Assembly (NCBI GenBank): GCA_963575745.1 | Contig: CAUYUJ010020611.1 | Location: forward strand, 1 to 64,000 | Source: Prorocentrum cordatum | Taxonomy: Eukaryota; Sar; Dinophyceae; Prorocentrales; Prorocentraceae | Length of the DNA stretch: 64,000 bases | Direction of reading: 5' to 3' | Shown here: positions 1,546 through 61,950 of the stretch, one piece after another | Numbering within the stretch: the stretch's first letter is position 1 | Layout of the letters: every line of letters starts with the position of its first letter | Program-made: the position numbers and the translations under genes | The notes under the pieces: generated by a model | What the model saw: only the letters and a program-made list of their open reading frames with translations | Database searches by the model: none | What the model was told of the DNA's origin: nothing

Positions 1546-2202
1546 ATGGCCAAGCGTCTGGCCACGATCAATGAAAGACAAACCGTGTGGGACATCATCA
1601 GCCCTGGGTTTGCAGTTGAAATGAAAGGGGATAGCATGTTAGTACACGCATGGTTGACGGGACGATGGCGGTGTCGAAACAAACAATAGCAACGCCGCGT
1701 TGATCAATGTATTGATGTCATGGAACGAAACGCTAATGAGTTGGGGATTAGATGCTCTGGGCTGGGGAGAGATCTGTACAAACATGAGTATAGGGAGGAT
1801 AACACACGGGCTGACGAGCTTACACACCTGGCCCGTGAGGGCCATTGCATCTACAATGAGTATGAATACAGATTCAACTTTGAAAGCTATCTTCAACCTA
1901 TCGCCTGTCGTGGTGCCTTCGACGGGGGTGTGTGCAGCAAAGGGACGGGATGTGGGTTCTGGCTTCAGATCGGGCTTTTGAATCTCGATTACGATTGTAA
2001 TAAGAGTACTCCTTATTCCCCTCTTCTTTCCTCCTCTCCTTACTCTGTGCCCTCCAATACCCCCCTCGTTTGGAGGGATGCGTGCGAAGCCGCGTGGTGC
2101 CTTGAGGAAGGTGCTACGATAACCGATGCCGAACTCAGTGCTGCTGAGGCGCTCTCAAGCGCTGTTGTGCATTTGGCACGACAGATCCTCACCGCCAGCT
2201 GA
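1546..2202 (+). pseudogene. E1 ORF2 C-terminus: permuted RNase H-like domain, one nonsense codon
   Basis: One frame from 1546 to the TGA at 2200-2202 with a single TAG at 1687-1689. In order it shows KGDSMLVHAWLTGRWR (GDS, Asp codon 1630), YREDNTRADELTHLAREG (Asp codon 1812), RGAFDGGVCSKGTGCGFW (Asp codon 1921) and TITDAELSAAEAL (Glu codon 2131). These are the four acidic positions of an RNase H fold with the usual C-terminal half placed before the usual N-terminal half. The element is dead because of the TAG and the 5' truncation. The assignment rests on motif reading, not on a profile search. Confidence 0.7.
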
Positions 2203-15100: not shown

Positions 15101-16131
15101 CTTCGACGCAACGTACGTGGAGAGATCACCACATGACTACGGTTGCGTATGGCCCATTGTGGGACAGACTCAGGACGGATGCGTCTGAGTGCTTGCGGGG
15201 TATGTTTCACTTCCAAGAGGCTTCGCAGCTAAAAAGGAGACATGTTAGTTCAGGTCGAGCTGTCGGCCAGAGATGCTGGCTATTTTCTTTCTGCGAATTC
15301 TACGGACTCAAATGGTGGGAGTCCTTTGTGCCGACAGATGCTGCGTATGTTCAGTTCTGCGAGCACATGTGTACACGGACGATGCTGAGTTATTTTCAGA
15401 AAAGAAAAGGGTGCGGTACAACAGGTGGGGCCCCGCAGGAGGTACTTACTATCACACAAAACGACCTACACACCTATGGGGCCCAAGAGGGCACTGCGGC
15501 GTTCAACGACAAACTGGCCAAACGTATTGCGTTACAAAATATGAAGGAGGTTGAGTACGACCTCGACTCATTTGGGATCCCTGTGTATATTTCTGGGGAC
15601 AGTCTTCTGGTGGTGTCTTGGCTGCAGGGTGTCTGGAGGGTGCTTAATCGTACGTATCAGGATAGGATCAACAGAATGATAAACCAACTCGACAACATGT
15701 GTCAAAGATATGGAATTAGGCCTGCCTGTCACGGGAGGGAAATTATTGACCACACATATAGGGAATGGAACACGCGTGCAGATGTACTCACTCATACGGC
15801 CCGCGTCGGGCCACCAGTGATTCGAGATAGGATAGGGCTTCACGCCCCTCAGTTACAACAGGTGTTTCGCGTTTGTGCCATCAGAGCTGGATTCGATGGT
15901 GGTGTCTCTTGCGACGGCGTGGGAGTCGGGTGCTGGATAGATGTTGGACGGGTATCGAGGCTCTCAAGGCAGCCACTCAGCCATGAGATCATTTGGACGG
16001 AGGTGTACAGTGCGGCACTCTCGATTGATCCAACTTCAACAGTGACTGATGCCGAGGTCTCGGCCGTTGAGCATACGATTATGATCTTGCCGCGGGTTGT
16101 ACAAGCGTATTTCGGACAGGATATGATGTGA
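12162..16131 (+). pseudogene. E3 ORF2: EEP endonuclease, reverse transcriptase, permuted RNase H; two frameshifts
   Basis: Runs in the ORF1 frame straight after TGA-C. Endonuclease: GSWNLNRAG, WGVQECQN, SAYLPDPG, LLDANVEL, VLDYIFVP, RLSDHGLL. Reverse transcriptase: ANADIKQAFDHC (motif A), IRTGGPEGPLLF (motif B position), HFVWADNCYLV (motif C, WADN at 14407-14418). The C-terminus has ISGDSLLVVSWLQG, YREWNTRADVLTHTAR, AGFDGGVSCDG and TVTDAEVSAVE, the permuted RNase H order, ending at the TGA at 16129-16131. Frame changes at about 13800 and 14390 kill this copy. The first in-frame ATG (12270) lies after the WN strand of the endonuclease. Confidence 0.85.
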
Positions 16132-21580: not shown

Positions 21581-22851
21581 CCACCACTGCAGATTCTCAT
21601 ACTCTTTCGTTTCTCCATTCCTTCGAAGGGAAGTGCCTGAAGATGATGATCTCGTCTCGGAAAGGGCCGACGGAAACGGAGCAAGCTTATCAGGAAAGGA
21701 GGTATCATGTTGCACGGGATCGTTTCTTGAAGGCTGGGTACTCCTCTCTGGTCCAGCGTTATCTGATGTTGCACTGGAATTTCGCAAAAGACATTGCAAG
21801 TTTCGCAAATAGCATGATTGTTGAGAAAGTGATCGACTTGAAGGCGGCGGAGAGGACATGGCGCGATTCCCGTATGGCGTGTTTGTGTTTTGGGCCGTAC
21901 ACTGATCGCAATCGCACACTTATGAGTGAGACGATGAGACACTTTGGCAACTGGTCGGAGGCTTCTTCCTACAAACGTCGCTGTCGAGGGACGGAGAGCA
22001 TTGGCCAGAGATCATGGCAATATACATTAGCTGAGTTTTTCGGAGATGATTGGTGGGTTCAGTTCACAGGCTCCCAGCTTGGATTTATGCAATATGTCAC
22101 GCACCTTTGTACACAGAGCATGCTTCGATGTTTCCAGGAGGTGTCGACGTGTGGACCTGTGAGTTCGCCCGCCTATTTGGCGCCCTCAGTGCATGGTGAA
22201 ATTCAGGTGAGCACGGATGATAGTCCGATGGCTGCTGAGAAACTTGCAAAGCGCATCGCCCTTCATAATATGAAAGCAACTCGTTGGAACCTGGAGGCCC
22301 CTGGAATCCCTCTGGAGGTGGTGGGTGACTCGCTCCTCGTGGTTAGCTGGGCTACGGGACGGTGGCGTGCAGATAATAGATCATATGCTGATAGAATATC
22401 GAAAATAATCAATACGCTTGATGGGCTTTGTAGCAGCTATAATATACGACCTCCAGCGGCGGGGATGGATCTTGTTCGTCATGATTTTCGGGAGTGGAAT
22501 ACTCGAGCCGACGTCCTTACACACCAGGCCCGAGAGGGCCAGATATTTAGTTCAGAATGTAGTCCGTATACACACGATTATGAGACAGAATTTTACGTTG
22601 CTGCTGCTATTCGGGCTGGTTTCGATGGCGGCGTGTCGTCTGAGGGATGTGGGTGCGGTTGCTGGATAGACATAGGCCTCAAACCACGGTATTGGGATCG
22701 ACGGGACCCCGCTCAGCTGATATGGAAGTCAGTTTTTGAGAGGGCTTGGCTTATTTGTCCAACTACAACTGTTACTGATACAGAACTCAGTGCTTTGGAG
22801 TGCATCGTGACTGCGCTCCCACAGGCAGCTCTATGGTTACCACAGACTTGA
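21580..22851 (+). CDS. E4 ORF2 C-terminal fragment with permuted RNase H-like domain
   Basis: Open from the insertion edge to the TGA at 22849-22851 and clearly homologous to the E3 ORF2 end (for example TTTADSHTLSFLHSFEGKC against TCTADASSLHMLNAFEGWC). It has no start codon of its own at the edge; the first ATG is 21643. The RNase H-like part shows VVGDSLLVVSW (Asp codon 22327), FREWNTRADVLTHQAREG (Asp codon 22510), AGFDGGVSSEG (Asp codon 22624) and TVTDTELSALE (Glu codon 22793). The frame is intact, but without endonuclease and polymerase it is a relic. Whether it is expressed cannot be told from sequence. Confidence 0.7.
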   Translation, partial: TTTADSHTLSFLHSFEGKCLKMMISSRKGPTETEQAYQERRYHVARDRFLKAGYSSLVQRYLMLHWNFAKDIASFANSMIVEKVIDLKAAERTWRDSRMACLCFGPYTDRNRTLMSETMRHFGNWSEASSYKRRCRGTESIGQRSWQYTLAEFFGDDWWVQFTGSQLGFMQYVTHLCTQSMLRCFQEVSTCGPVSSPAYLAPSVHGEIQVSTDDSPMAAEKLAKRIALHNMKATRWNLEAPGIPLEVVGDSLLVVSWATGRWRADNRSYADRISKIINTLDGLCSSYNIRPPAAGMDLVRHDFREWNTRADVLTHQAREGQIFSSECSPYTHDYETEFYVAAAIRAGFDGGVSSEGCGCGCWIDIGLKPRYWDRRDPAQLIWKSVFERAWLICPTTTVTDTELSALECIVTALPQAALWLPQT

Positions 22852-33341: not shown

Positions 33342-34457
33342 ATCGCAGTACCAATAGATCCAGGGAGATGTTCAAAGAGGGGGGGGGGTCAAAACGTTGG
33401 TGGAGAAAGTTGTGAGGTATAACTTTGAATTTGCCGTGGAGGTATCCCAATATAAGTGCCACGTGCCGTCCACTGTGTATAGCAAATCGTGGCAGCAGAC
33501 GCTGCGCTCCATGTTGCACGTATCGGGGGAGTGGACGGTACAGAGGGATGAAATGCTGGCGGCAGTAAGTCGGGCGATGTCGAGAGAGGGAGCGAGACGG
33601 CTCGGAGGCAGACCACGAATCGTGGCGAGCTGCTGGCATGCACCCTTTGAAAAATGGAGGTCTCTTCTATGGCACGACACGTGCGTTGTACCGACGGATT
33701 GGGAGGAGTTTGTGGAACACATATCACAGATACCCAAAGTGCAGGATATGTTTGTGAGGAGGAGTAAGGAGAGGAGGATGGGAGGGTTTGCGAAGACACC
33801 GACAGATGACGAGTTGGCCCGACGTCTTGCAGTTATTAAGGAACAAACTACGATATGGGACCCTGGGATGGAAGGGATTGCTGTTGAAATGTGCGGTGAC
33901 AGTAAAACGGTCGTACACTGGTTGAGGGGAGCCTGGGCTTGTGACAACAGTGGGTATGCCAGACGGATCGCCAGGATACAACATATCATGTATGACGTGA
34001 GTGAACAACACAACATACGATGCCCGACGTACGGAAGGGATTTCTGGAAACATATCTATAGGGAAGCCAATGCCTATGCTGATGAGCTTACACACCATGC
34101 GAGAGAAGGAAACTGTTACAGAATTTACAAGCACGACTATATCAAACAGAACAGGACAAACATCAAATACATCAGAGGATGCTGGGATGGTGGAGTGAGC
34201 AGTGAGGGTGCCGCAGGAGGTCACTGGATTGAAGTTGCTCCAGAGAATGGCCCGTGGACACTCGTGAGCTCAGAGGCCTACATGTTTGATGTAGGAGCCA
34301 CCGTGGCGGAGGCAGAATTATCTGCTGCCGAGCGCCTGTGCACAGGTGTGGAGCACATTGTTAAAGACATTTCCTCTGCAAAGCGGAGGAGGCGGATTTA
34401 ACTGGCTCTAGCCCTTAGGCTTGGGCGCACGCGCCCTGTGTAGCCTGACCAAACACC
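33342..34457 (+). mobile_element. E5: 5'-truncated non-LTR retrotransposon in a satellite monomer
   Basis: The only non-LTR copy not at a stem-loop. Compared with neighbouring monomers, about 20 bp (TGCTGTCGGTTTTCTGCACT) are missing at the insertion point and there is no clear target duplication. The 3' region has a CCTC...GAGG hairpin and GGGCGCACGCGCCC (34423-34436) and ends CCAAACACCAAA. Confidence 0.8.
33397..34401 (+). CDS. E5 ORF2 C-terminal fragment with permuted RNase H-like domain
   Basis: Open to the TAA at 34399-34401. It starts in the region between polymerase and RNase H, with VSGEWTVQRDEML matching ASGEWTEQRDVHV of E6. The RNase H-like motifs are CGDSKTVVHWLRGAW (Asp codon 33898), YREANAYADELTHHAREG (Asp codon 34081), CWDGGVSSEG (Asp codon 34186) and TVAEAELSAAERL (Glu codon 34315). 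It is a separate family from E3/E4 and E6/E7 by sequence. As a 5' truncation it lacks endonuclease and polymerase, so it should be inert, although the frame has not decayed. Confidence 0.7.
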   Translation: MVEKVVRYNFEFAVEVSQYKCHVPSTVYSKSWQQTLRSMLHVSGEWTVQRDEMLAAVSRAMSREGARRLGGRPRIVASCWHAPFEKWRSLLWHDTCVVPTDWEEFVEHISQIPKVQDMFVRRSKERRMGGFAKTPTDDELARRLAVIKEQTTIWDPGMEGIAVEMCGDSKTVVHWLRGAWACDNSGYARRIARIQHIMYDVSEQHNIRCPTYGRDFWKHIYREANAYADELTHHAREGNCYRIYKHDYIKQNRTNIKYIRGCWDGGVSSEGAAGGHWIEVAPENGPWTLVSSEAYMFDVGATVAEAELSAAERLCTGVEHIVKDISSAKRRRRI

Positions 34458-37085: not shown

Positions 37086-37401
37086 TTGGCCCACCCGGCC
37101 GGGGCGGACAATGTGGTAACTTTTTGGTGGTTTTGCGAATATTTGAAAGATATTTGACCATTTATTTTGAGAAAGCAGATTTTTCGCACCTGTGGACGAC
37201 TATGAGGGCCTCTGCGTCTTAATCTGAGCTCTCTAGGTGCACTTTTACTATCAAAACACTGGGCGAAACCAACTTTATGTCGATCTGAAGAAATCATGTT
37301 TTCTCTTTTTCGAGAAATGCTTCCAGAAGCCCTCTCTTTTGATGCTGAGCACTCTTACGCGTGCAAGGAGCTCTACGAGGTTCCCGGCGGTGACCAGGTT
37401 G
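37086..37401 (+). repeat. Block B and left half of the stem-loop holding E6
   Basis: Block B ends GAGCTCTACGAGG at about 37380, then CCCGGCGGTGACCAGGTTG. GACCAGGTTG (37392-37401) is repeated at 43521-43530. Confidence 0.85.
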
Positions 37402-37913
37402 CTGCTGTCCCTCCTCGGGAATCTCAGCGGTGGCCTGGCCCGTCGGGGGCCTCCTCAAGCCTGTCTCCTCAGGCTGCCCCCTGGGCGGCCGTGGGCGCGC
37501 GTGGGTGCGCGCTGGCCCATAAGTTCGTGTACTTCGTCGGCTGCAACCTCCTGGACGTGCTGCGCATAGGTCGCTGCATTTGTTCTCTGCTTGTGTTAGT
37601 GGGTGAGCCCACACGTGCCGCTGGAGGCGCAAGGCCGCTACCTGTTGCACTTGTATCTTTGCTGTTTGCTTGTGATACTCTTGGGAGCCCAGCACTTACC
37701 AGTTTTGCTCTGGCAGTTGAGAAGGACACTTTGACCGTTTTTGTTGCAGCAGATTTCATCACGTACCGACATTCACCTTCACGGGGTTGGGATAAGTTTC
37801 TTGAAGAACTCGAGGACGAACACTATCGTGATCTGGAGGCTAGTAGGTGCCCTACTTGTCGAGCTTATCGGTATTCTACTTCCAGTTGTGGGCAGTGTGA
37901 TCTTAAGAGAAAG
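37402..37913 (+). other. E6 5' region, open in the ORF1 frame but without ATG
   Basis: I find no ATG in this stretch. The ORF1 frame is nevertheless open throughout and encodes RCPTCRAYRYSTSSCGQC just before the first ATG, a possible four-cysteine zinc-binding motif also present in E7. It could be translated from a non-ATG start, or it could be untranslated sequence that happens to be open. Confidence 0.5.
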
Positions 37914-39026
37914 ATGGTTCCGACTTCTGATGATGATATGGGAACTGAGGGCAACGGAGAGAAGCGACAGAGGAAGCTCCTGGAAGATAGACGTCTTCTT
38001 GGTGATGCCGAGGGTGGTGGAGGAGGGGCAGGTAGTGGGAATGGAAGTGGTAGTAGTGGAGGAGGAGGAGGTGAAGCTGGAGATCTGGCCACTATGCTCC
38101 GTGCACAGTTCGATGCCATGCGTGAAGATATGCAGAGGATGCTTATGCAGAACTCTGTTGACATCAAAGAGCAGATTCAAACGAGGGTATCAGAGCAGGT
38201 TGCCCCTATTGCTTCGTCGGTGCAGGAGATTCGTTCAGCTCAGGAGGCCCAGGCGAAAGAGATCAAAGCACTTCAGTGTCAGATGAACTCTAGGGATCCC
38301 TGGGCAGATTCATCATCTCTGGGAGGTGCGTCTACTCGTGATTCTCGTACTGCTGACTTCCAGAGGCCCTTTGTACCACATGTCCCGACTTGGATCCAGG
38401 TGAGCGGCTTCGCGCAAGATGACCCCCGAAAGGTTGAAACTCGAGATAAGGCCAAGATCCAGGTCGCCACGGTTAGGAACATGATAGGTAAGTTGTACAC
38501 ACTATCGCAAGCACGGGAGAGTGACGTTACTAAGATCTTCGACAGGGGTAGGACGGACGGGGATATCGCTTCCAATCGATTTGGTCTGACCAAGTTTCGC
38601 ATATACTTCATGCCAGGGGCTTCGAAAGAGACGGTCTGGGAAGTACGCAACGAGTGGGCCTCAGCCTGGTCCAATTCTTGCCCTGATCTGGTCGGTTGCC
38701 AGAACAGTTTTGGACCATGCAAAGATCGACACCTCGGTTGGTTTGTCCAACCGGCGCCACAGGACCGACGTCGAGTTGGGGAGACTCGCAAGGCGACTGC
38801 GATCTTTCATAAGCTCAAGACTGTTGCCACCGCTCTCATCACTTTTGAGCCTGAAGGGCCTGCGAAGGCTTGGGCATACCTGCAGAAGGATAGTCAGAGT
38901 GATAAAGTGTGTGTAGGTACGTGGACGGATACCGTGGGATGGAAGTTCGTGGCCGAGCGGGTCCAGCACATCGATTCAGATCTGGACTGCAAGACTTGGG
39001 AGAGGCAGGTGAATAGCAGCTCGTGA
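37914..39026 (+). CDS. E6 ORF1: coiled-coil, gag-like RNA-binding protein
   Basis: 370 residues from the first ATG of the element to TGA at 39024-39026. An acidic and basic N-terminus is followed by a Gly/Ser-rich linker (residues ~40-65), a coiled coil (about 70-125, MREDMQRMLMQ to KEIKALQCQM), the family motif SLGGASTR, and a C-terminal region aligning with the ORF1 ends of E2 and E3. I do not recognise a named domain in the C-terminus. The expected role is binding the element RNA. The stop is UGA followed by C and the next domain is in the same frame, so part of the product may read through into ORF2 (1,791 residues in all). Confidence 0.8.
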   Translation: MVPTSDDDMGTEGNGEKRQRKLLEDRRLLGDAEGGGGGAGSGNGSGSSGGGGGEAGDLATMLRAQFDAMREDMQRMLMQNSVDIKEQIQTRVSEQVAPIASSVQEIRSAQEAQAKEIKALQCQMNSRDPWADSSSLGGASTRDSRTADFQRPFVPHVPTWIQVSGFAQDDPRKVETRDKAKIQVATVRNMIGKLYTLSQARESDVTKIFDRGRTDGDIASNRFGLTKFRIYFMPGASKETVWEVRNEWASAWSNSCPDLVGCQNSFGPCKDRHLGWFVQPAPQDRRRVGETRKATAIFHKLKTVATALITFEPEGPAKAWAYLQKDSQSDKVCVGTWTDTVGWKFVAERVQHIDSDLDCKTWERQVNSSS

Positions 39027-39027
39027 C
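39024..39027 (+). promoter_or_regulatory. In-frame UGA-C between ORF1 and ORF2 of E6
   Basis: TGA CGG separates two long frames that are in the same phase. The same arrangement is found in E2 (TGA CAA at 5141), E3 (TGA CGA at 12159) and E7 (TGA CGG at 47148). UGA followed by C is the leakiest stop context in many eukaryotes. Proposed as a readthrough site. This is inference. Confidence 0.6.
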
Positions 39028-42000
39028 GGTGCCCAGCTTCTGTTGGAGGTTGGAACGTTCGGAGGTTGGGAAGATACACCTCCGAGTGCATGAATCACAT
39101 TGCCGAATTAAAGATTTCCATCGTCGGGGTCCAAGAGAGCCAGTTCTTACACGACTTGGATCTTGCAGATGCGGGTTGGGATATACATCGCTCGGCAGAT
39201 GAGGGGGAGAACGTGGGGAGACGGGCTGCCATCTTGTGCCGAGGTGTATGGAGACATCTGCTTATCGATGTTGTGTGTGGTCGTCGCTGGGTCATTGCGA
39301 TCTTTCGCAAGCTCATCTTCGTTTCTGTCTATCTCCCTCATAAGGAGCGGGGTGCACAGGGTGAAGCGCGCCGTTCTCCTGAAGGGTTTCTCGCTAGTTT
39401 CAAGCTCTATACGGACGTGTTATCGGATCTTGTTGCACATGTCTCTGCGGCCAAAAAGCGATTTCACATTGAGGAGGTTGTTATCTCGGCTGACGCCAAC
39501 GTGGAGGTTTTCCCGCACCACAGGATCAATGGGGTGGAGGTTACGGGGGAGGCGGTGAATGGGCCTATACGTAAGAGGGGGAGGTCTAGTGGAGGTGACG
39601 AAAGTAGAGCCAACAGGATGCGGGAGATGTACTCGGGGGCCTTTCTGAAGACCATGGGGGCCCTCAAGTTGCAGCTAGCCAACACTTTTGGGACTCGTCA
39701 GCCTACTTGGAGACACAATTCAAGCACATACGAGCACGTCTATGATTATCTTGCGGTCCCAGCTTCTTGGATGACTCCAGAGGTGACTTGTTCTTGGGTT
39801 GTGCCGTCCCAGGTCCCACGGTCGGAGGCGACGGAAAGGACGTTTAGCGATCACAAGCTCTTGTGTGCCGAGATGCCCGCCCAGCATGCTCAGTTGAGGT
39901 ATCGACGTCGGCCTCAGCTCAAGACCTGGAAGCTTCAGCCAGGGTTCGAGCTCCAGCAGACAGCCGGCTTGGAGAGAGCGATCTGCCAGCCCGAGCTCGT
40001 GAATCAGATCCACACGGACGTAGGTTTTGAGGTCATGACACAGAGTATACTTGAGGGTGCCAGTGAGACTTTGGATATCTCCCGTCCTCGTGGTCAGCCT
40101 GTTTCAGACTATCCCAGATATTCGGAGGAGGATTTACTGATAAAGGAGGAGTTCTTTAAGGTCAGGAAGAGGTGGAGGGTGGCACGATATGGCGGGGCTA
40201 ACGTGGGACAGGAGGAGTACGAGAGAGTCCAGGAGGAGTATAAGGTGACAGCTAGGAGGTGGCGTCGAGTACGTAAGCGTCATGATCGTGCATGTGAGCT
40301 CTATCGTATTCGTGACGGTGTCCGTCGTAGGCCTGTTATTACGCACATGTATGTGGACGGGGTCCTCACGCGTGACCAGGAGAAGTGGATTGAGGGCCTT
40401 CGGCGTCATGGGCTCCTGAGGTACTCTAGCGATCCCCACCGACAGGACACCAACGCGTGCTTGGATGAGCTTAAGAACCGGTGTAAGGCCCTGCGAGACT
40501 CTGGAGAGTCCCACCGCAACCCGATTAACATGGGTCTCTTGCTGGAGGCACGGTCTAGACTCAGGGAAGGACGGGCAACGGGTGCAGACGGGGTGACGTC
40601 ATCGGTGCTCAAAGCATTGCCATGGGAAGCCCTCCGACACATACTTACCTTATTCCGTTTGCTGTATGATCAGAAACATGTTTCACCGAAGTCCTGGAGA
40701 GAGATCTTGGTATGCTTGATGCCTGAGAATCCCAAGGCTCGTGATTTTGAAGAAACACGGGCCCTTTCACTTCTTTCTCATTTTGGTAAGTGGTATATCA
40801 GTTGTCTATGTGTACTTCTAGAGCACCGCGTTCGGCAGGCTGCACCGCCAGGTTGCAACTTATATGGCTTTATCGCGGGTCACAAATGTTATGAGGTCAC
40901 GGCCCCCCTCAAACGTCTTGCTCAACACGGCGTTGTGTGGGGGAAGGAGGAGAGTCTTTATCTTGCAAGTGCTGATATTGAAAAGGCGTTTGATAATTTC
41001 ACGGTGAGATGTGCAGCAGAGGCGCTTTTATTCCATCATGTCCATCCTGCCCTTGTGTATGCTGTCTTTGAGAGTTATGCTTGTAATACGGCAGAGATCA
41101 GCTTCCAACAGTGTTCTACGACCATCTCGTGGGATACTTGCATACGTACAGGTTCCTTGGAGGCGCCTTTGCTATTTGTTGCCCAGACACTTCGTATGCT
41201 TGCACCAGTGACGGCAGGTTGGAGGCAGTCTGGATACGGCGTCAGGCTCACTGATGAGGCATCCAATCTCTTGGTCAACCACTGGTTGTGGGCAGACAAT
41301 GTTTTGCTGGCAGCAGCTTCCAGGCGAGAATTGACCCATATGCTCGAGGACTTGACTGGGGTCCTCAACCGCTTCGGTTTCAATTGGAAAGCATCTTCGA
41401 TGGAGTTCTTGGCTTGTGGTGTCCAAGGTCCATTGCAGGATATCCGCCTGCCTGTGCCGGGGCTCCTGCCTGCTGAGATGGGTAGGAAGCGTTCTCGTGG
41501 GGCTTCCCAGAGCGCCGCAGGCCCTTCGGAGGAGATGATAGTGAGGCAGGTGGAGAGGATGGAGGTTCTTGGCACGCTATTGGACGTACGATTTCAGGAT
41601 CATGAAGACATTAAGCACCGACTGGAGAAGGCACGACGGGTCTTTATGAGTGAGATTTCTTTTTACTCGTCGCCCGTGGTTCCGCTTCGTTGTAAGTTTC
41701 AGCGTTATGATAGCAGGGTCAGAAGTTGCTTTCTGTACGGTTTGGAGGGTACGACTCTGGATTCGAGTAGTCTCCAACAGATACATGCAGCTGAAGGCAA
41801 CTTCTTGTCCACCATGAGACGTCTCAAAAAGAAGATCACGGAGTCCTGGGGAGAGTACTGGGGCAGGAGGATTAAAGGTGGTCGTCGCTTATTGAAGTGG
41901 GCCCGTAAGCCTTCGATGGTCCAGCTCGCCCTTCATCGCCAGTGGCTCTTCGCCAAACATGTTGTGAGCACGATCCATGAGGAGCATAGTCGGGTGGATG

Positions 42001-43289
42001 AGGACGCACTCAGTCAGGGCATTCTTTATCATGAGCCACGAGATCCTGATATTTTTGGTGGTTCGCAGCGTTCCTTGGAGTTATCGGTTCCCTCGCCTAC
42101 CCCGAATGCCAGACAGCTCAACAGTTCGTGTAGGAGAAAGGCACAGAGCGCATCTTCCTTGGAAAATAGGTCAGTTCGCAGACGTATATCGGAGAACACG
42201 GCACATGAGCATCACGATTCACAACATGTACATGAGCCTGTTCGTAAGCGGGTACGCCATACCTATGCACGGGAGGAGGAAGGAGGATTGCCCACTGCCA
42301 GTATGCAGGGCGCCTTGACGATGATGCACGCGTCGGGGGAGTGGACTGAGCAGCGTGACGTACATGTTAGAGCTCTCCCTGGGGGCCGAAGGTTTACTAG
42401 AGCCTGTCGTCATCGAGTCTTGACGGGACTTAGGCCTTGGTTCGAGGTCTTCGAGCACGCGCGCGGGGTTCATTGGGATCGCACGATGGTCTGGAATGAA
42501 ACTGGCTGGCGTTCTTTCCTGGTGGGTACCCTGGCCGCCCTGGACTTGGATGATCTTCTCGAGTTCTGCCTTCTTCGGGATCCCTTCACGGGTGAGTTCA
42601 AGCAGGAGGAGGAGGGGGAGGAGAAGTCAGAGGAGCAGCAACGACGGGAAAATGAACGGGTGGCGAAACGACTGGCCGCGATAAATGATGATGAAACCAC
42701 TTGGCGTGGGGAAGGGGGTGGATATGGCTTGGAGCTCCGTGGGGATAGCCAGTGTGTTGTGCGCTGGCTTAATGGACGATATCGCTGTCACAATGAAGTA
42801 TATCGCCGCACGATCAAGGGTATGCAGAACCGCCTTCACATAATGAGTGAGGACCATAATCTTGTCACGGCTGAAGTGGGAAGGGATATGTGGAAATGGG
42901 TGTATAGGGAGGGCAACGACGAGGCGGACCATGAGACACATCTTGCACGTGAGGGTAAAGTAACTTCTGATGTTCGTTGGAATCATAACACTCTTTATCA
43001 TATTTGTTCGGGTCATTATATTGTTCGTGCACTTAGAGGAGCTTTTGACGGTGGGCGGTGTGAACGTGGCACTTCGTGTGGCTGGGTTATGGATGCTTAT
43101 CTTGTTCCCTCTCTTCCTCCTCACCAGCTTCCCCCTGGACTTGTGCAGGGCGGATGGCACCCTGGAGTTGGCCGCAGAGGTTTCATGATCCCTCGCCACT
43201 GCACGATCACACAGGCTGAGTTGGCAGCTGCACATTCGCTTCTCAATGGCATTGCCGAGATGTGTATACACGTACAGCTTGGCCGGTGA
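39027..43289 (+). CDS. E6 ORF2: EEP endonuclease, reverse transcriptase, permuted RNase H
   Basis: 1,420 residues to the TGA at 43287-43289 if read from the codon after UGA. Endonuclease (about 1-300): GGWNVRRLG, VQESQF (Glu), SVYLPH, SADANVEV, VYDYLAVP, TFSDHKLL. Reverse transcriptase (about 500-800): RATGADGVTSSVLKALP, SADIEKAFDNF (motif A), IRTGSLEAPLLF (motif B place), WLWADNVLL (motif C, WADN at 41289-41300). A long linker with ASGEWTEQRD follows. The RNase H-like end has RGDSQCVVRWLNG (Asp 42744), YREGNDEADHETHLAREG (Asp 42927), RGAFDGGRCERG (Asp 43047) and TITQAELAAAHSLL (Glu 43218). The first in-frame ATG (39090) lies past the WN strand of the endonuclease, so a complete enzyme needs readthrough or a non-ATG start. 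Confidence 0.88.
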   Translation, partial: RCPASVGGWNVRRLGRYTSECMNHIAELKISIVGVQESQFLHDLDLADAGWDIHRSADEGENVGRRAAILCRGVWRHLLIDVVCGRRWVIAIFRKLIFVSVYLPHKERGAQGEARRSPEGFLASFKLYTDVLSDLVAHVSAAKKRFHIEEVVISADANVEVFPHHRINGVEVTGEAVNGPIRKRGRSSGGDESRANRMREMYSGAFLKTMGALKLQLANTFGTRQPTWRHNSSTYEHVYDYLAVPASWMTPEVTCSWVVPSQVPRSEATERTFSDHKLLCAEMPAQHAQLRYRRRPQLKTWKLQPGFELQQTAGLERAICQPELVNQIHTDVGFEVMTQSILEGASETLDISRPRGQPVSDYPRYSEEDLLIKEEFFKVRKRWRVARYGGANVGQEEYERVQEEYKVTARRWRRVRKRHDRACELYRIRDGVRRRPVITHMYVDGVLTRDQEKWIEGLRRHGLLRYSSDPHRQDTNACLDELKNRCKALRDSGESHRNPINMGLLLEARSRLREGRATGADGVTSSVLKALPWEALRHILTLFRLLYDQKHVSPKSWREILVCLMPENPKARDFEETRALSLLSHFGKWYISCLCVLLEHRVRQAAPPGCNLYGFIAGHKCYEVTAPLKRLAQHGVVWGKEESLYLASADIEKAFDNFTVRCAAEALLFHHVHPALVYAVFESYACNTAEISFQQCSTTISWDTCIRTGSLEAPLLFVAQTLRMLAPVTAGWRQSGYGVRLTDEASNLLVNHWLWADNVLLAAASRRELTHMLEDLTGVLNRFGFNWKASSMEFLACGVQGPLQDIRLPVPGLLPAEMGRKRSRGASQSAAGPSEEMIVRQVERMEVLGTLLDVRFQDHEDIKHRLEKARRVFMSEISFYSSPVVPLRCKFQRYDSRVRSCFLYGLEGTTLDSSSLQQIHAAEGNFLSTMRRLKKKITESWGEYWGRRIKGGRRLLKWARKPSMVQLALHRQWLFAKHVVSTIHEEHSRVDEDALSQGILYHEPRDPDIFGGSQRSLELSVPSPTPNARQLNSSCRRKAQSASSLENRSVRRRISENTAHEHHDSQHVHEPVRKRVRHTYAREEEGGLPTASMQGALTMMHASGEWTEQRDVHVRALPGGRRFTRACRHRVLTGLRPWFEVFEHARGVHWDRTMVWNETGWRSFLVGTLAALDLDDLLEFCLLRDPFTGEFKQEEEGEEKSEEQQRRENERVAKRLAAINDDETTWRGEGGGYGLELRGDSQCVVRWLNGRYRCHNEVYRRTIKGMQNRLHIMSEDHNLVTAEVGRDMWKWVYREGNDEADHETHLAREGKVTSDVRWNHNTLYHICSGHYIVRALRGAFDGGRCERGTSCGWVMDAYLVPSLPPHQLPPGLVQGGWHPGVGRRGFMIPRHCTITQAELAAAHSLLNGIAEMCIHVQLGR

Positions 43290-47150: not shown

Positions 47151-48156
47151 CGGTGCCCAGCTTCTGTTGGAGGTTGGAACGTTCGGAGGTTGGGAAGATA
47201 CACTTCCGAGTGCATGAATCACATTGCCGAATTAAAGATTTCCATCGTCGGGGTTCAAGAGAGCCAGTTCTTACACGACTTCGATCTTGCAGATGCGGGT
47301 TGGGACATACATCGCTCGGCGGATGAGGGGGGGCACGTGGGGAGACGGGCTGCCATCTTGTGCCGAGGGGTGTGGAGACATCTGCTTATCGATGTTATGT
47401 GTGGTCGTCGCTGGGTCATAGCGATCTTTCGTAAGCTCATCTTCGTTTCTGTCTATCTTCCTCATAAGGAGTCTGAGCGGGGTGCACAGGGTGAAGCACG
47501 CCGCTCTCCTGAAGGGTTTCTCGCTAGTTTCAAGCTCTATACGGACGTGTTATCGGATCTTGTTGCACATGTCTCTGCGGCCAAAAAGCGATTTCACATT
47601 GAGGAGGTTGTTATTTCGGCTGACGCCAACGTGGAGGTTTTCCCGCACCACATGATCAATGGGGTGGAGGTTACGGGGGAGGCGGTGAATGGGCCTATAC
47701 GTAAGAGGGGGAGGTCTAGTGGAGGCGACGAGAGTAGAGCCAACAGGATGCGGGAGATGTACTCGGGGGCCTTTCTGAAGACCATGGGGGCCCTCAAGTT
47801 GCAGCTAGCTAACACTTTTGGGAATCGTCAGCCTACTTGGAGGCACAATTCGGGCACATACGAGCACGTTTATGATTATCTTGCGGTCCCAGCTTCTTGG
47901 ATGACTCCAGAGGTGACTTGTTCTTGGGTTGTGCCGTCCCAGGTCCCACGGTCCGCGGCGGCTGAACGGACGTTTAGCGACCACAAGCTCTTGTGTGCCG
48001 AGATGCCTGCCCAGCATGCTCAGTTGAGGTATCGACGTCGGCCTCAGCTCAAGACTTGGAAGCTTCAGCCAGGGTTCGAGCTCCAGCAGACAGCCGGCTT
48101 GGAGAGAGCGATCTGCCAGCCCGAGCTCGTGAATCAGCTCCACACGGACGTAGGTT
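47151..48156 (+). pseudogene. E7 ORF2, part 1: EEP endonuclease
   Basis: In frame with ORF1 after TGA-C. It has the same endonuclease motifs as E6 (GGWNVRRLG, VQESQF, SVYLPH, SADANVEV, VYDYLAVP, TFSDHKLL). The coding sequence is interrupted after NQLHTDVG at 48156 by the recombinase element and resumes at 58690. The apparent frame continuing to 48338 is inside the insertion. Confidence 0.85.
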
Positions 48157-48542
48157 GTGAGCGAACAGCCGAGGCACGAATGCTGTCTCGCGGGCACAGC
48201 AGCGAGGACGCGATGCGCGTGCGTCCGCGCGCCCCGCAGCGAGCGCGTGAGGTTGCGAGGGGCGCTTCGCCGCGAGGCGACGACACGCGAAACGCGAGAA
48301 AGATGGAGCCGCGGTTTTGTCGGATGCGCCGCGGCTAGGTCGCCGCGGAGGGAGCGCACGCGAGCGTTCACCGCGGCACCGGCCAGCCTTGCCGCGCACA
48401 GGAACAGTCATGCGTGGCGGCTAGGCCGCCGCGGAGGGAGCGCGCGCGACCCGTCCGCGGCGCCGACCAGCCTTGCCGCTCGCAGGTTCCATAATTGTTT
48501 GCGGCAGGCGGGGCGCCCATCTTCCTGTGGGCGCGTTTCGCC
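48157..48542 (+). repeat. A1 direct repeat of the recombinase element
   Basis: 386 bp, and by eye identical to A2 at 58240-58625 (constant offset 10,083). It contains an internal ~85-bp tandem duplication (GCGGCTAGGTCGCCGCGG at 48331 and its relative at 48417). Identity of A1 and A2 implies a recent insertion. Confidence 0.9.
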
Positions 48543-50111
48543 TGCCGTTTCGGGCCCTGGCCCCGCGGCGTTTCGCTCTGGCCCCGTGTCCCTGGCCCTT
48601 TCTCTCTCGCCCTTCTGTCCTTCGGTGTCCTCCCGCCCCCTCTCGCGCCTGGCCCTTTCCCCTCTGCTTCGCTCCGCTCTCGCCCCGGCCCGCCTCTTGC
48701 CTCTCGCCCCGCGGCCCGCCGCCGGCCCTGTTCTCGGCCCCTCGGCCTCCCGTTCTGTCCCGCCGTCGGTCCCTTCGCTCGGTCTCTCGGTCCTGCCGTC
48801 CTCCCGCGCGCCGGTCTCCGCGCCGTCCGCCCCGCCGCGCGTCGGCGGGTCGCTCGCCCTCCGCTTCGCCCGCCGCGCGCGCAGGTTCCTCCTCCTTCTC
48901 CCGCGCGCGCGCAGGACAACCGCGGCCCCGCCGAGGCGGGCGGGCCGCGTTGGCTCAGCGCGCGCAAGACCAATCGCGGCCCCGCCGAGGCGGGCGGGCC
49001 GCGCTCTCGCGCGCGTGCAGATTGATTTCGACCCGCCGAGGTGGGCGGGCCGCGCGATGCGCCCAGGCCGAAGGGCGCCCCGTTCTGGCCCCGTCGCCGC
49101 GTCGTCGTGTCGTCGTTGGCGCGTCGCGCCGCCGCCGCCGCCGCTGCTGCCGCTGCGCCGTCGCGTCCGTGTCGCGTCGGCTCGTCGTGCTCTGTCGCGT
49201 CGTCGTCGGGGCGTCGTGCTGCCGCTCGCCGCTGCCGCCGGTGTGTCGCTGCGGCCGTCGCCGTCGTGCCCGCCGCCGCCGCTGCGGTGGCCGCCGCCGC
49301 CGCCGCCGCTTCGTGTCCCGCTTCCGCTTTGGCCCCGGCGGGGCCTGCCCCGGCTCCGGTGGGGCCCGCTCCGGCCCTGGTGGCGTCCCGGTCCCTCCCT
49401 GGGCGCGGTGCTCCGCTCCTTCGTCGCCTCTGCTGGACGCGGCTCGTTTCGCGGCGGGTGCGCTGGGTCCCGGGCCGGCGCCCCGTCCGCTCCTCGTCGT
49501 TTTGCTTGGCTCGAAAGTTCTTTTCTGCCCATGGTCGGGCATCTGCGCAAGTGTGCGCACGGGGCTCGTGGACTCGCGGCAGGAGATCTGGGTTGTTGTG
49601 ACACCCAGACTACCTGCTGCAAGTCCGCGAGTACCCACCCCGGCGCCTCGCGCCCGCACTGGCGGGCAGGCGGACCGCCGGGGACATCCGTACCTGCGTT
49701 CGGCTCGTGTCGGTCGGCCCGGATCGGCCCCGGTGCCAGGCCGGCCCGTCCGGACTCCTGCAGAGACGGCGACTCGCGTTGCCCGTGCAGTCCCGGTCGA
49801 GCGCGCCAGACGCAGCGCGCGCGCGACCAGGTCGATGTTAAAGTCGCGGCGCCAGCGAGCCCGTTTCCCGCAGTGGCAGATCTCGTGGAGGTTGGGCTCG
49901 CAGCGCGCCCCAGCAGCGGCCGCGGCGGTGCGCGGTAGGACATGGAAAAGGATTTAGACGGCTTGCGCCAACCAGGCAAGGGAGATGTGGAGTGTGATCG
50001 GGCCCATCGGGGATCACGCTGACTCCACTAGCGTCGGCCCACTGAGGCCAGGACACGGCACGACCAGGCAAGGTGGCGATGCCCGGATCATCATCTCCGG
50101 GGGGCGCTCGG
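48543..50111. other. GC-rich leader region of the recombinase element
   Basis: No supported gene. Long frames exist on both strands, as expected at this base composition, and they show no domain. Contents: a ~60-bp unit repeated three times at about 48905-49056 (core GCCGAGGCGGGCGGGCCGCG), a GCC/GCN triplet run at about 49240-49310, then mixed GC-rich sequence. It probably holds the promoter and an untranslated leader. Confidence 0.55.
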
Positions 50112-50711
50112 CCCACTGGGGCCCCGCCCGCACCGGCACGTTCGATTGAACGTGACCGGTGGGTCCACTGGGACCCCTTCAGGGAGCAGCGTGCACGCCC
50201 ATGTTGGCTTTGCCCGTACCGGCGCGCTCACTGGACGCGACCGGTGGTCCACTGGGACCCCTCTCCCTCCGCTCAAGGGCTGCAGGCAGGCCCACTGGGG
50301 CCCTGCCTGCACCGGCGCGATCGATTGGACGTGTCCGGTGGGTCCACTGGGACCCCATCAGGGAGAAGCGAGCAAGCCCACGTTGGCTTTGCCCGTACCG
50401 GCGCGCTCACTGGACGCGACCGGTGGTCCACTGGGACCCCTCTCCCTCCGCTCAAGGGCTGCACGCAGGCCCACTGGGGCCCTGCCTGCACCGGCACGAT
50501 CGTTGGACGTGACCGGTAGGTCCACTGGGACCCCTTCAGGGAGCAGCGAGCAAGCCCATGTTGGCTTTGCCCGTACCGGCGCGCTCACTGGACGCGACCG
50601 GTGGTCCACTGGGACCCCTCTCCCCCCCGCTCAAGGGCTGCAGGCAGGCCCACTGGGGCCCTGCCTACACCGGCACGATCGTTGGACGTGACCGGTTGGT
50701 CCACTGGGACC
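50112..50711. repeat. 179-bp tandem repeat, ~3.4 copies
   Basis: CCCACTGGGG anchors at 50112, 50291, 50470 and 50649 give a period of exactly 179 bp. Each copy contains GGTCCACTGGGACCCC twice. The period is not a multiple of three, so coding is unlikely even though frames are open. It lies upstream of gag and could be regulatory. Confidence 0.9.
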
Positions 50712-51248
50712 CGCTAGCCCTATGTTCTCCCAGGACGGCCTTTTGGTGGCCCCGCTCCTGGGTGACAGTGACGCGCCAAGGCCTGGCGCCCCGTTCGGGG
50801 CAGCGGACACCCGGCGCGAGCTGCGGGAGCAAGCGGCACCGACAGCTGAGAACGACGGACGGCCGGCGGCTCCGGCGGACGGTCCGGGCGGGGCGGTCCG
50901 GCTCGCTTACGAGGCTCCGCCATCCCGCCCGCCCCCCCCGCTCTCCGGGGCCCGCGTGTCGGGATTCGTGGCGCATGCGTGATCTCGCGCGCAGGCGGAC
51001 TCGGGCCCCGTTACCGTTCCCGTCGCCGGTCGCACGTCGGTTTCTCCGAGGCTTGCATTCGATCGTGCTTCGTGGCGGCTTCGCCGTGTCGGCCTCGGCC
51101 TCGTCTTTCCCGAGGCTCTCGCCCACCCGCCGACCCGCCAGTCCCGGTACCTCGTGTTCCGCGAACGTGCGACAGAGCGAGCCGCGCCGCGCGGACAGTG
51201 CAGCGGACTCCAGGTTTCCCTTCGTTCGCCGCGCAAACAATTGCCGCC
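50712..51248. other. Region between tandem repeat and gag start
   Basis: GC-rich, with overlapping short frames on both strands and no recognisable motif. It ends in GCCGCCATGG at the proposed gag start. Confidence 0.5.
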
Positions 51249-52767
51249 ATGGAGGCGGCCGCTGCCTTGCGTTTCTTTCTCAAGAAGCATGCGATGGCGA
51301 CAGGGGCTCCAGACCCGGACACATGGCTGAATGACATGGTCGCGATTCTCGACCGAGCGGAGGCACGTGTCCGCCGCCCGCGCGCGCGCTCCCGCTCCCG
51401 CCCGCGCGTCCGTGCGCGCGATCCGGCCGTCCCGCGCGGCCACCCGCGCGAGCGTCCCGTGCAACAGGTGTACACCCCGCAGGCACTCGTGTACGTCAAC
51501 ACAAAGAAGATTGAGATCTCGCCTGGAAAGGCTCACGCCCTCGACCAGGCTATACAGGCAAGCGCGCGCCCAGAACCGCCGCGACGGTCGCCCTGCGACC
51601 GCCGCCGTTCAGGCGGCGAAGAAGGAGTTCGCACCTGCTGGGACCACCGCGCCTGCCGGGCCAGCGGCACCCGCAGCGGACCCGCTGGCGGAGCTCACCC
51701 GCATCCTCACCAAGGATGACGCCCCGACGGTTCACGTCGACTTCCAGGCGCAGCTGAACGCCATCACCCTGGCCAACTTGCCCACCGCGGCGTGGCCCAG
51801 GCGCGCCCCCCCCCCTCCCAGCCTGTTTCGCCGGTCCGCGGCCGCCCGTCCGGCCGCGTCGCGTCAGGACCGTGCGCGTCGATTCCCTCGCATCCGAGGT
51901 CGACCGCCTACAGAAGAAGAAAGGGCTTGCCGCCCCTTTTGTCAACGTCGACTTGCGCCTGTGGCTTCCCACGGGCGCGTCCGCCGTCGGCCGCCCACAT
52001 GACGACGATGCCACCCAGGCGGGCGCGGGCGGCGGGGCCAAGCCTCGCCTGATGAATTGGACCGAGTGGCACCTCGCCTTCGACCAGTACCTCGCTGTCC
52101 CGCCCGCCGACCGTACTCGCGGACCCTCCTCGGCGGCGCAGGTACGCTCTGGCCGCTGCCGCAACGAAGCAGCTCGACTTCGCCGCGGCACTCGCACACA
52201 AGCAGATCTGCCTCCTGGCATCTTGCCGCGCGCGCCCGCGCGCCCTCCGGCCAGCGGATTCCCCGCTCGCTTCGCAGGTAGCGGCCCACGCCCAGCTCAA
52301 GGGCCGCAAAGCCCACCTGGGCGTGTTCTACGACCAGGTCGCCCGCCGCTCCTGGGCCGAGAAGGCCGCCGCTGGCGTCACAGGTTTCCAGGCCCGCCAC
52401 CCCGCTCCGCCGCGCGCGCCCGCGCCCCGCCCCCCCGCCGCGGACCTCGGCATCGCAGGTGAGTCAGGCGGCCCTCGCCCTCGACGAGGTGCTGCTCCGC
52501 CAGGCGGAGCGGGAATACGATTTTGACGAGAAGAGCCTCGGCAGCGCCCCCGCCGCCACGAAGCAGGAGGGAGCCGGTCCGGCCCGAGGCCCGGCGACGC
52601 CCAAGCGCAGCCAGGCCCACCGTGCGGGCCATGGCCTGACCGCCCAGCAGAGTCAGCAGAGTCAGCAGGGCAAGCGCAGGGCCGACACCGGGGCCAAGAC
52701 CGGCTCCTGGAAGAGCTGGAACAACAAGAGCAACGGCGGGGGCGGCGGCAAATGGCAGCGCCGCTGA
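51249..52767 (+). CDS. Gag-like protein of the recombinase element (spliced model)
   Basis: The ATG lies in GCCGCCATGG. The frame changes four times, and at each change a 55-67-nt segment with GC or GT at the left and AG at the right can be removed so that the frame continues exactly: 51558-51612, 51801-51867, 52087-52141 and 52392-52458. In-frame candidates are 52218-52277 and, less surely, 51363-51467. With the first five removed the product is 404 residues. It begins MEAAAALRFFLKKHAM, has DSLASEVDRLQKK (short coiled coil), DFAAALAHKQICLL, LDEVLLRQAEREYDFDEKSL, and ends in a Gln/Gly/Lys-rich tail (QQSQQSQQGKRR, GGGGGKWQRR). I recognise no named domain; Gag is inferred from position and the basic tail. 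Confidence 0.6.
51363..51467 (+). other. Possible intron in gag (105 nt, GC-AG)
   Basis: In-frame Arg/Pro-rich GC-rich segment between GCGGAG and GTGTACACC. Longer than the others and without frame evidence, so weak. Confidence 0.3.
51558..51612 (+). other. Micro-intron in gag (55 nt, GC-AG)
   Basis: ATACAG/GCAAGC...GTTCAG/GCGGCG. Removal joins frame 0 to frame 1 precisely, giving AIQAAKKEF. Confidence 0.7.
51801..51867 (+). other. Micro-intron in gag (67 nt, GC-AG)
   Basis: GCCCAG/GCGCGC...CGTCAG/GACCG. Removal restores the frame, giving WPRTVRVDSLA. Confidence 0.7.
52087..52141 (+). other. Micro-intron in gag (55 nt, GT-AG)
   Basis: GACCA/GTACCTC...GGCGCAG/GTACGC. Removal restores the frame, giving AFDQYALAAATKQ. 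Confidence 0.7.
52218..52277 (+). other. Possible micro-intron in gag (60 nt, GC-AG)
   Basis: CTCCTG/GCATCT...TTCGCAG/GTAGCG. The length is a multiple of three, so the frame gives no test. It is supported only by composition and border bases. Confidence 0.45.
52392..52458 (+). other. Micro-intron in gag (67 nt, GC-AG)
   Basis: TTCCAG/GCCCGCC...ATCGCAG/GTGAGT. Removal restores the frame, giving GFQVSQAALALDEV. Confidence 0.7.
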
Positions 52768-53000
52768 TCAGCGACAGCGCGCGCCTGACGGGCACAGCCG
52801 TCAGCACGGCGCGCGGAATTTTGGGCTTGCTGCTAATTAGAGCGTCCGACGCGGTAAAGGGTCCGAGGCGCACCAGGAATGCGCGGGCCCCGCCCTCCCT
52901 CCTGCGCCCTCCACGGCGCCCCCCTCGCCCTCCACGGCGCGCCCCTCGCCTTGGCGCCCCCCTCGCCCTCCGCGGCGCGTGCGTTCAGCTTGCTTTCGCC
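52768..53000. other. Spacer between gag and pol
   Basis: Contains a short tandem array of CCCCTCGCC/CCACGGCGCG words (about 52905-52980). No gene seen. Confidence 0.55.
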
Positions 53001-55640: not shown

Positions 55641-55729
55641 GCGCTCTCGCGGCCTCGCCAGTGCTCTCCTTCCCCCCGCTCCTGCTCTCCCGCCCACCCG
55701 TCACCCCGCGCTCGCTCGCGCGTAGCGTC

Positions 55730-58689: not shown

Positions 58690-61600
58690 TGAGGTCATGA
58701 CACAGAGTATGCTTGAAGGTGCCAGCGAGACTTTGGATATCTCCCGTTCTCATGGTCAGCCTGTTTCAGATTATCCCAGATATTCGGAGGAGGATGTGCA
58801 GATTAATGAGGAGTTCTTTAAGGTCAGGAAGAGGTGGCGGGTGGCACGATCTGGCGGGGCTAACGTGGGACAGGAGGAGTACGAGAGAGTCCAGGAGGAG
58901 TATAAGGGGATAGCTAAGCAGTGGCGTCGAGCTCGTAAGCGTCATGATCGTGCATGTGAGCTTTATCGTATTCGTGACGGTGTCCGTCGTAGGCCTGTTA
59001 TTACGCACATGTATGTGGACGGGGTCCTTACGCGTGATCAGGAGAAGTGGATTGAGGGTCTTCGTCGTCATGGGCTCCTGAGGTACTCTAGCGATCCCCA
59101 CCGGCAGGACACCAATGCGTGCTTGGACGAGCTTAAGAACCAGTGTAAGGCCCTGCGAGACTCTGGAGAGCCCCACCGCAACCCGATCAACATGGGCCTT
59201 TTGCTGGAGGCACGGTCTAGACTCAGGGAAGGACGGGCAACAGGTGCAGACGGGGTGTCGTCGTCGGTGCTCAAAGCATTGCCATGGGAAGCCCTCCGAC
59301 ACATACTTACCCTATTCCGTTTGCTGTATGATCAGAAACATGTTTCACCGAAGTCTTGGGGAGAGATCTTGGTATGCTTGATGCCTAAGAATCCCAAAGC
59401 TCGTGATTTTGAAGAAACGCGGGCCCTTTCACTTCTTTCTCATTTTGGTAAATGGTACAGCAGTTGTCTATGTATACTGCTAGAACACCGCGTTCGGCAG
59501 GCTGCACCGCCAGGTTGCAACTTATATGGCTTTATCGCGGGTCACAAATGTTATGAGGTCACGGCCCCCCTCAAACGTCTTGCTCAACACGGCGTTGTGT
59601 GGGGGAAGGAGGAGAGTCTTTACCTTGCAAGTGCGGATATCGAAAAGGCGTTCGATAACTTCACGGTCAGATGTGCAGCAGAGGCGCTTTTGTTCCATCA
59701 GGTCCATCCTGCCCTTGTGTATGCTGTCTTTGAGAGCTATGCTTGTAACACGGCAGAGATCAGCTTCCAACAGTGCTCGACGACCATTTCGTGGGATACT
59801 TGCATTCGCACAGGTTCCTTGGAGGCGCCTTTGCTATTTGTTGCGCAGACCCTTCGTATGCTTGCACCAGTGACGGCAGGTTGGAGACAGTCTGGATACG
59901 GCGTCCAGCTCACTGATGAGGCCTCCAATCTCTTGGTCAACCACTGGTTGTGGGCAGACAGTATTTTGCTGGCAGCGGCTTCCAGGCGAGAATTGACCCA
60001 CATGCTCGAGGACTTGACTGGGGTCCTCCACCGCTTCGGGTTCAACTGGGAAGCATCCTCGATGGAGTTCTTGGCTTGTGGCGTCCAAGGTCCATTGCAG
60101 GATATCCGCCTGCCTGTGCCGGGGCTCCTGTCTGCTGAGGTTGGTAGGAAGCGTCCTCGTGGGGCTTCCCAGAGCGCCGCAGGTCCTTCGGAGGCGATGA
60201 TAGTGAGGCAGGTTGAGAGAATGGAAGTTCTTGGCACACTATTGGACGTGCGATTTCAGGATCATGAAGACATTAAGCATCGGCTGGAGAAGGCACGACG
60301 GGTCTTTATGAGTGAGATTTCTTTTTATTCGTCGCCCGTGGTTCCGCTTCGTTGTAAGTTTCAGCGTTATGATAGCAGGGTCAGAAGTTGCTTCCTGTAC
60401 GGCTTGGAGGGTGCGACTTTGGATTCTGGTAGTCTCCAACAGATACATGCAGCTGAAGGCAATTTTTTGTCTACCATGAGGCGTCTCAAAAAGAAGATCA
60501 CGGAGTCCTGGGGGGAGTACTGGGGCAGGAGGATTAAAGGTGGCCGTCGCTTATTGAAGTGGGCCCGTAAGCCTTCGATGGTCCAGCTCGCCCTTCATCG
60601 CCAGTGGCTCTTCGCCAAACATGTTGTGAGCACGATCCATGAGGAGCATAGTCGGGTGGATGAGGACGCACTCAGCCAGGGCATTCTTTATCATGAGCCA
60701 CGAGATCCTGATATTTTTGGTGGTTCGCAGCGTTCCCTGGAGTTATCGGTTCCCTCGCCTATCCTGAATGCCAGACAGCGTAACAGTTCGTGTAGGAGAA
60801 AGGCACAGAGCGCATCTTCCTTGGAGAGTAGGTCGGTTCGCAGACGTATATCGGAGAGCACGGCACATGAACATCATGAATCACAACATGTACATGAGCC
60901 AGTTCGTAAGCGGGTACGCCATACCTATGCACGGGAGGAGGGAGGAGGATTGCCCACTGCTAGCATGCAGAGCGCCTTGACGATGATGCACGCGTCGGGG
61001 GAGTGGACAGAGCAGCGCGACGTGCATGTTAGAGTTCTCCCTGGGGGTCGACGGGCTACTAGAGCTTGTCGTCATCGGGTCTTGACGGGACTTAAGCCTT
61101 GGTTCGAGATTTTCGAGCACGCGCACGGGGTTCATTGGGATCGCACGATGGTCTGGGATGAAACTGGCTGGCGTTCCTTCCTGGTGGGTACCCTGGCCGC
61201 CCTGGACTTGGATGATCTTCTCGATTTCTGCCTTCTTCGGGATCCTTTCACGGGTGAGTTCAAGCAGAAGAGGAGGGGGAGGAGAAGTCAGCGGAGCAGC
61301 AACGACGGGAGAATGAACGGGTGGCGAAACGACTGGCCGCGATAAATGTTGATGAAACCACTTGGCGTGGGGAAGGGGGTGGATATGGCTTGGAGCTCCG
61401 TGGGGATAGCCAGTGTGTTGTGCGCTGGCTTAATGGACGATATCGCTGTCACAATGAAGTATATCGCCGCACGATCAAGGGTATGCAGAACCGCCTTCAC
61501 ATAATGAGTGAGGACCATCATCTCGTCACGGCCGAAGTGGGAAGGGATATGTGGAAATGGGTGTATAGGGAGGGCAACGATGAGGCGGACCATGAGACAC

Positions 61601-61950
61601 ATCTTGCACGTGAAGGTAAAGTAACTTCTGATGTTCGTTGGAATCTTAACATTCTTTATCATATTAGATCGGGTCATTATACTGCTCGTGCACTTAGAGG
61701 AGCTTTCGATGGTGGGCGGTGTGAACGTGGCACTTCGTGTGGTTGGGTAATTGATGCTTATCTTGTTCCCTCTCTTCCTCCTCACCAGCTTCCCCCTGGA
61801 CTTGTTCAGGGCGGATGGCACCTTGGAGTTGGCCGCAGAGGTTTCATGATCCCTAGCCACTGCACGATCACACAGGCTGAGTTGGCAGCTGCACAATCAC
61901 TTCTCAATGGCATTGCTGAGCTGTGTATACACGTACAGCTTGGTCAGTGA
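58690..61950 (+). pseudogene. E7 ORF2, part 2: reverse transcriptase and permuted RNase H, one frameshift
   Basis: Continues the E7 coding sequence at EVMTQSMLEG. Polymerase motifs match E6 (SADIEKAFDNF, IRTGSLEAPLLF), with WADS (59951-59962) in place of WADN. ASGEWTEQRD is present. A one-base deletion near 61268 relative to E6 (CAAGCAGAAGAGG against CAAGCAGGAGGAGG) shifts the frame, and the RNase H-like domain continues in another frame to the TGA at 61948-61950 (GDSQCVV, YREGNDEAD, GAFDGGRC, TITQAELAAAQSLL). Confidence 0.85.

Follow-up and report, generated by a model that had tools for sequence, protein, structure and literature searches.

Does the second open reading frame (ORF2) of a dinoflagellate long interspersed nuclear element (LINE) end in a ribonuclease H (RNase H) whose two halves have changed places? 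The question is raised by a 64,000-nucleotide stretch of Prorocentrum cordatum DNA (assembly GCA_963575745.1, contig CAUYUJ010020611.1, positions 1 to 64,000), called the window here, for which a preliminary description had reported RNase H signatures in swapped order at the ORF2 ends of six elements (E1, E3, E4, E5, E6, and E7). Our analysis indicates that this C-terminus is very likely a naturally circularly permuted archaea-like RNase H of type 1.

The motifs were read in all six tails, and the swapped order was found in each. The end of E6 ORF2 (42720-43260, forward strand) runs GLELRGDS, WKWVYREGNDEAD, AFDGG, TITQAELAAA, and stop, YREGNDEAD being the helix motif. The order common to all six tails is a GDS strand, an RExNxxAD helix, an [F/W]DGG strand, a TxxxAE or TxxxTE helix, and the stop; in E1, an in-frame stop separates the first two signatures. 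The ordinary type 1 order (strands 1-2-3, helix A, strand 4, strand 5, helix E) occurs in none of them, and therefore the tails would represent a permuted variant rather than an ordinary type 1 member. E7 is 93% identical to E6, whereas the remaining tails are 28-31% identical to it. Thus, the swapped order stood in each of the six elements, but they represent five families and not six independent cases. The features concerned are the following:

39027..43289, + strand: E6 ORF2 (open frame 39027-43286, stop codon 43287-43289), with the reverse transcriptase in mid-protein and the putative permuted RNase H at the end; the start codon is not settled
42651..42683, + strand: E6, extra helix NERVAKRLAAI ahead of strand 4, predicted with low confidence; possible relic of helix A
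42726..42956, + strand: E6, first half of the domain, read as the second half of RNase H (strand 4, helices, strand 5, helix E)
42744-42746 and 42927-42929, + strand: E6, Asp codons of the first half
42957..43019, + strand: E6, presumed linker from the old C-terminus to the old N-terminus
43020..43286, + strand: E6, second half of the domain, read as the first half of RNase H (strands 1-3, helix A)
43047-43049 (Asp) and 43218-43220 (Glu), + strand: E6, putative catalytic codons of the second half
61387..61947, + strand: E7, putative permuted RNase H
33877..34398, + strand: E5, putative permuted RNase H, with the best Pfam match and the best model
15577..16128, + strand: E3, putative permuted RNase H
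22306..22848, + strand: E4, putative permuted RNase H, with TE replacing AE
1609..2199, + strand: E1, putative permuted RNase H, interrupted by the in-frame stop

The spacing of the motifs was also compared. The Asp of GDS and the Asp of AD had been described as 61 residues apart in E6, and the same distance was found in all five tails that have both in one open frame. From AD to DGG there are 35-40 residues, and from DGG to AE (TE in E4) 43-70 residues, in all six tails. Twelve reference RNases H were kept for comparison, eleven of which gave a DG-to-AE value (L006 was not matched by the pattern); the distance was 38-46 residues in ten, and the value of 49 for L003 reflects an early false start of the pattern. 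A pattern consisting of a hydrophobic residue, DG[GA], 30 to 70 residues, and TxxxAE occurs five times in the six frames of the window, always inside these tails (E4 is missed because of its TE), and in none of 20,000 random 233-residue sequences of equal composition. Ten columns of the second half are invariant in all six tails, including the D, G, G, T, E, and A of its two motifs. The four carboxylates (D, E, D, D) stand within their motifs in six of six tails, in E1 across the in-frame stop, in agreement with the earlier claim that the acidic residues are kept in all families.

Two other explanations were rejected. An assembly or frame artefact is at odds with the same order in five families and with one open frame in five of the six tails. 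A hidden ordinary first half upstream would have left motifs, but neither DG[GASC] nor [AM]E[LYFVW]x[AS] occurs in the residues examined upstream of GDS (230 in E6 and in E3, 227 in E4, 166 in E5, 48 in E7, and 44 in E1), and no tail frame ranks within the first 14 when a first-half profile is used.

The first half of the domain is recognized as RNase H by family profiles. Pfam RVT_3 matches three of the six tails at E up to 10, in the first half only, and the match to E5 (E 1.5e-6, 28.5 bits) lies above the cut-off of 21.6 bits, which places the domain with the type 1 RNases H. With a profile of twelve cellular reference RNases H (L002-L013), the seven frames holding the six tails ranked first among the 501 open frames that are 60 residues or longer; E1 appeared as two weak pieces (E 0.12 and 0.72). 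In the PDB, the family profile matched the RNase H 3u3g best, in native as well as in swapped order. The Arg of RExNxxAD is present in all six tails. Equated by alignment to 3u3g and the cellular RNases H, its position is that of the active-site Arg, which part of PMC5348765 gives as a mark of archaea-like RNases H.

Structures were predicted for two families with AlphaFold2, using six-row alignments. The tails of E6 (predicted local distance difference test score, pLDDT, 79.4; predicted template modelling score, pTM, 0.76) and of E5 (pLDDT 83.9, pTM 0.82) were each modelled as one compact domain, in which the elements succeed one another as expected: strand 4 and helices come first, a short strand 5 and helix E are next, and three long strands lead to a long helix at the C-terminus. 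The carboxylates have the same places in both models. The GDS Asp stands immediately behind strand 4, helix E has the AD Asp as its residue 8, the DGG Asp is located within strand 1 (the first of the long strands), and residue 5 of helix A (the last helix) is the AE Glu. We take D70, D134, D10, and E48 of RNase HI to be placed alike on its elements.

Fold comparisons in chain order (VIA) matched solved RNases H in part only. The structures 4e19, 3aly, 4h8k, and 3u3g cover model residues 18-109 with 20-28% identity, and residues 585-662 of the foamy-virus RNase H 7o24 fall within model residues 20-192 with 19% identity. The absence of a whole-domain match in a chain-order comparison proves nothing, and the folds that were weakly matched presumably have the topology of a permuted RNase H. 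With Foldseek, 3aly was found at rank 7 for the E6 model (E 0.079, probability 0.91). The top PDB rows of the Foldseek comparisons, namely PelC (E 2e-4 to 9e-4, root mean square deviation above 10), the HPF-type factor 6eri, and beta-lactamase pieces, were taken as shared local topology, and actin capping protein, which headed the VIA list for E6, was taken as chance at that Z. In a viral structure library there were no matches at E up to 0.001; a Solivirus ribonuclease H was third, with E 0.11.

The proposed chain would thus run strand 4, helices, strand 5, helix E, strands 1-2-3, helix A. The new termini would lie between helix A and strand 4, the old C-terminus (helix E) would be connected to the old strand 1 through a linker of roughly 20-30 residues, and the ordinary fold with its four-carboxylate two-metal site would be rebuilt in space. 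Such an enzyme would cleave the RNA strand in the RNA:DNA hybrid that arises in target-primed reverse transcription and might clear the template for second-strand synthesis; RNases H of other retroelements are described, in part of PMC5348765, as cutting the template RNA in the reverse-transcription hybrid.

Is the domain still an enzyme? Between E6 and E7, the ratio of nonsynonymous to synonymous substitution rates (dN/dS) was 0.06 for the first half of the RNase H tail (5 changes) and 0.32 for the second half (16 changes), and 0.34 for the whole tail compared with 0.14 for the reverse transcriptase part and 0.13 for the N-terminal part. The changes are few, yet both halves look constrained. 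Judged from the sequence, the permuted RNase H is probably functional, and the kept residues point to catalysis. Alternatively, the permuted fold could persist without catalysis and only bind the hybrid or aid the reverse transcriptase. The strong divergence of the second half would fit this alternative, but all six tails retain the four carboxylates together with the active-site Arg, and we consider this alternative improbable.

The second half of the domain is the more difficult part of the assignment. When the native chain was aligned with the cellular RNases H by hhalign, two pieces in swapped order were obtained, the second of which set query residues 84-153 on template positions 2-56, with DGG on DGG and AE on AE. 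After the halves had been swapped, a single alignment spanned template positions 2-125, with a score of 59.4 compared with 56.6 for the native order. Also, the best PDB match of the swapped profile, 3u3g, had an E of 1.5e-4 compared with 8.7e-4 for the native one, two alignments that also differ in rows and length. When E5 alone was compared with the PDB, two of its blocks aligned to 3u3g in swapped order, but singly they were not significant. Swapping raised the RVT_3 score of E5 from 26.4 to 27.9 bits and that of E6 from 14.4 to 18.1 bits; E3 and E4 had no RVT_3 match in either order. Together with the models of two families, the swapped-order alignment supports a permuted RNase H, as had been proposed.

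Several results weigh against this assignment. The second-half profile alone found no RNase H in the PDB and matched no known family, and with the cellular first-half profile the second half of the tails was not among the 14 best frames. Its lone hhalign score of 14.9 was reached by 12 of 399 column shuffles, and the upstream block scored 12.8, so that the margin of the second-half match is small. The reversed second half alone scored 9.5. The swapped-order score was reached by 19 of 400 column shuffles, and the same template span was seen in 2. By shuffles, the placement of the second half on the RNase H first half thus appears only moderately significant. Profiling the halves separately and swapped, as had been suggested, therefore had a divided outcome: the first half and the swapped order find RNase H, but the second half alone does not. 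No search placed the two halves in different known families. Rows of influenza HA2 among the PDB profile matches covered one long helix and were taken as chance.

These results leave some room for an explanation in which the first half is a decayed RNase H without strands 1-3, and the FDGG...AE tail forms a small domain of its own whose likeness to the first half of an RNase H is due to chance, as the lack of a significant match to the tail alone and its shuffle result would suggest. However, the two acidic residues of the tail do not vary among the six elements, the motif pair was absent from the 20,000 random sequences, and the AlphaFold2 models (pTM 0.76-0.82) combine both halves in one domain. 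We regard this explanation as quite unlikely.

A helix of the form [LMV]A[KR]R[IL]A directly precedes the GDS strand in all six tails (E1, E3, E4, E5, E6, and E7). Both Pfam and hhalign place this LAKR helix on helix A: the RVT_3 match to E5 begins at profile position 20 and takes in the helix (28.5 bits compared with 26.4 without it), and hhalign sets it on template position 42 onward. A permutation with another cut, in which this helix is helix A and the C-terminal AE helix an extra element, would account for these placements but is very improbable, as the helix leaves the hhalign score unchanged at 55.6, is modelled at low confidence, and has E, E, E, D, D, and A across the six tails three residues before its conserved Ala, whereas the C-terminal Glu is invariant in all six. 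The LAKR helix may instead be a relic of a duplication, a reading that stays tentative because the helix does not raise the score and has no conserved acidic residue.

Duplication and trimming are a usual route to permuted proteins. The permuted RNase H of the window probably originated when an RNase H domain was duplicated in tandem and the outer halves were subsequently lost. We lean towards the view that an active permuted RNase H defines a LINE lineage, having arisen by duplication and loss inside the transposon, with the LAKR relic still in place, and having been kept down to about 30% identity.

How does this domain compare with known systems? Plant Ta11 L1, oomycete L1, and Utopia elements likewise carry an archaea-like RNase H with the active-site Arg at the ORF2 C-terminus, and a CCHC motif is named for them; permutation is unmentioned in the part of PMC5348765 concerned, whereas the halves are swapped in the elements of the window. 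The closest solved sequences, the cellular archaea-like RNases H 3u3g/4h8k (LC11) and 3aly (Sulfolobus tokodaii), have the same four carboxylates, but the ordinary order and shorter loops than the tails. The unpermuted parent is the RNase H-like superfamily fold with strand order 32145 and strand 2 antiparallel, as given in part of PMC3985635. A circular permutation within the RNase H-like fold is described for one unnamed pair of predicted structures in a 2025 preprint (PMC12667903), the covered parts of which do not mention retrotransposons. Elsewhere, in the excerpts concerned, the permuted item is a reverse transcriptase thumb (PMC10830420), rRNA (PMC11602121), or a winged helix (PMC2848206). 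In the open-licence literature, no description of a permuted RNase H in a retrotransposon was found in the available portions of the matches listed. No relatives were found in viral contigs (queries A1, P0001, E3 ORF, and E5 ORF), in prokaryote genome contigs (queries A1 and P0001), or in plasmids (query E6 tail).

The remainder of E6 ORF2 is consistent with a LINE. RVT_1 matches residues 565-777 (reading from 39066) with 28.4 bits and E 1.6e-6, just below the Pfam cut-off of 29.6 bits, which identifies a reverse transcriptase. The PDB match of this region to 8c8j, which we take to be LINE-1 ORF2p, is weak (E 0.02). The N-terminus gave no Pfam match at E up to 10 and is endonuclease-like by eye only. 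Directly upstream, a 576-amino-acid ORF (37296-39026), presumably ORF1, matches no Pfam family above cut-off. E2 (5357-6721) is a copy of the ORF2 N-terminal part with in-frame stops and without the RNase H tail. The whole window (1-64000) is densely filled with nested LINE copies and repeats of 1.1-1.4 kb, almost all on the + strand, and a tRNA search of it found none. Zepp and Zepp-like LINE clusters of green algae similarly form nested same-direction arrays with many 5'-truncated copies, according to part of PMC8226300, a text in which RNase H does not occur. The array is reminiscent of Zepp-type clusters at algal centromeres and telomeres.

E7 ORF2 is split by a GC-rich insertion (48154-58625, GC about 0.7) ending in 389-bp direct repeats (48154-48542 and 58237-58625) that are 99.7% identical. 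By eye, it contains a DIRS-like reverse transcriptase and a tyrosine recombinase (56315-57976), as well as RNase H signatures in normal order at about 54778-55637; none of its scanned ORFs was named by Pfam. This recombinase element had been put forward as a control. The normal order could be seen, but the control is weak because the element was missed by the RNase H profile and has its signature distributed over two frames.

Few enzyme folds are as old or as well studied as RNase H, and permutation is unmentioned in the part of the superfamily survey concerned, the main text of which contains no word starting with "permut" (PMC3985635). If the domain is active, a natural rearrangement of so old a fold would be unusual. 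A permuted form that keeps all catalytic residues would readily test to what extent a two-metal site tolerates changes of chain order, and also how transposons reshuffle their domains. Because profile and fold searches in chain order see only part of such a domain (Pfam matches three of six tails), permuted RNases H may sit unnoticed in other LINEs that are assumed to lack RNase H.
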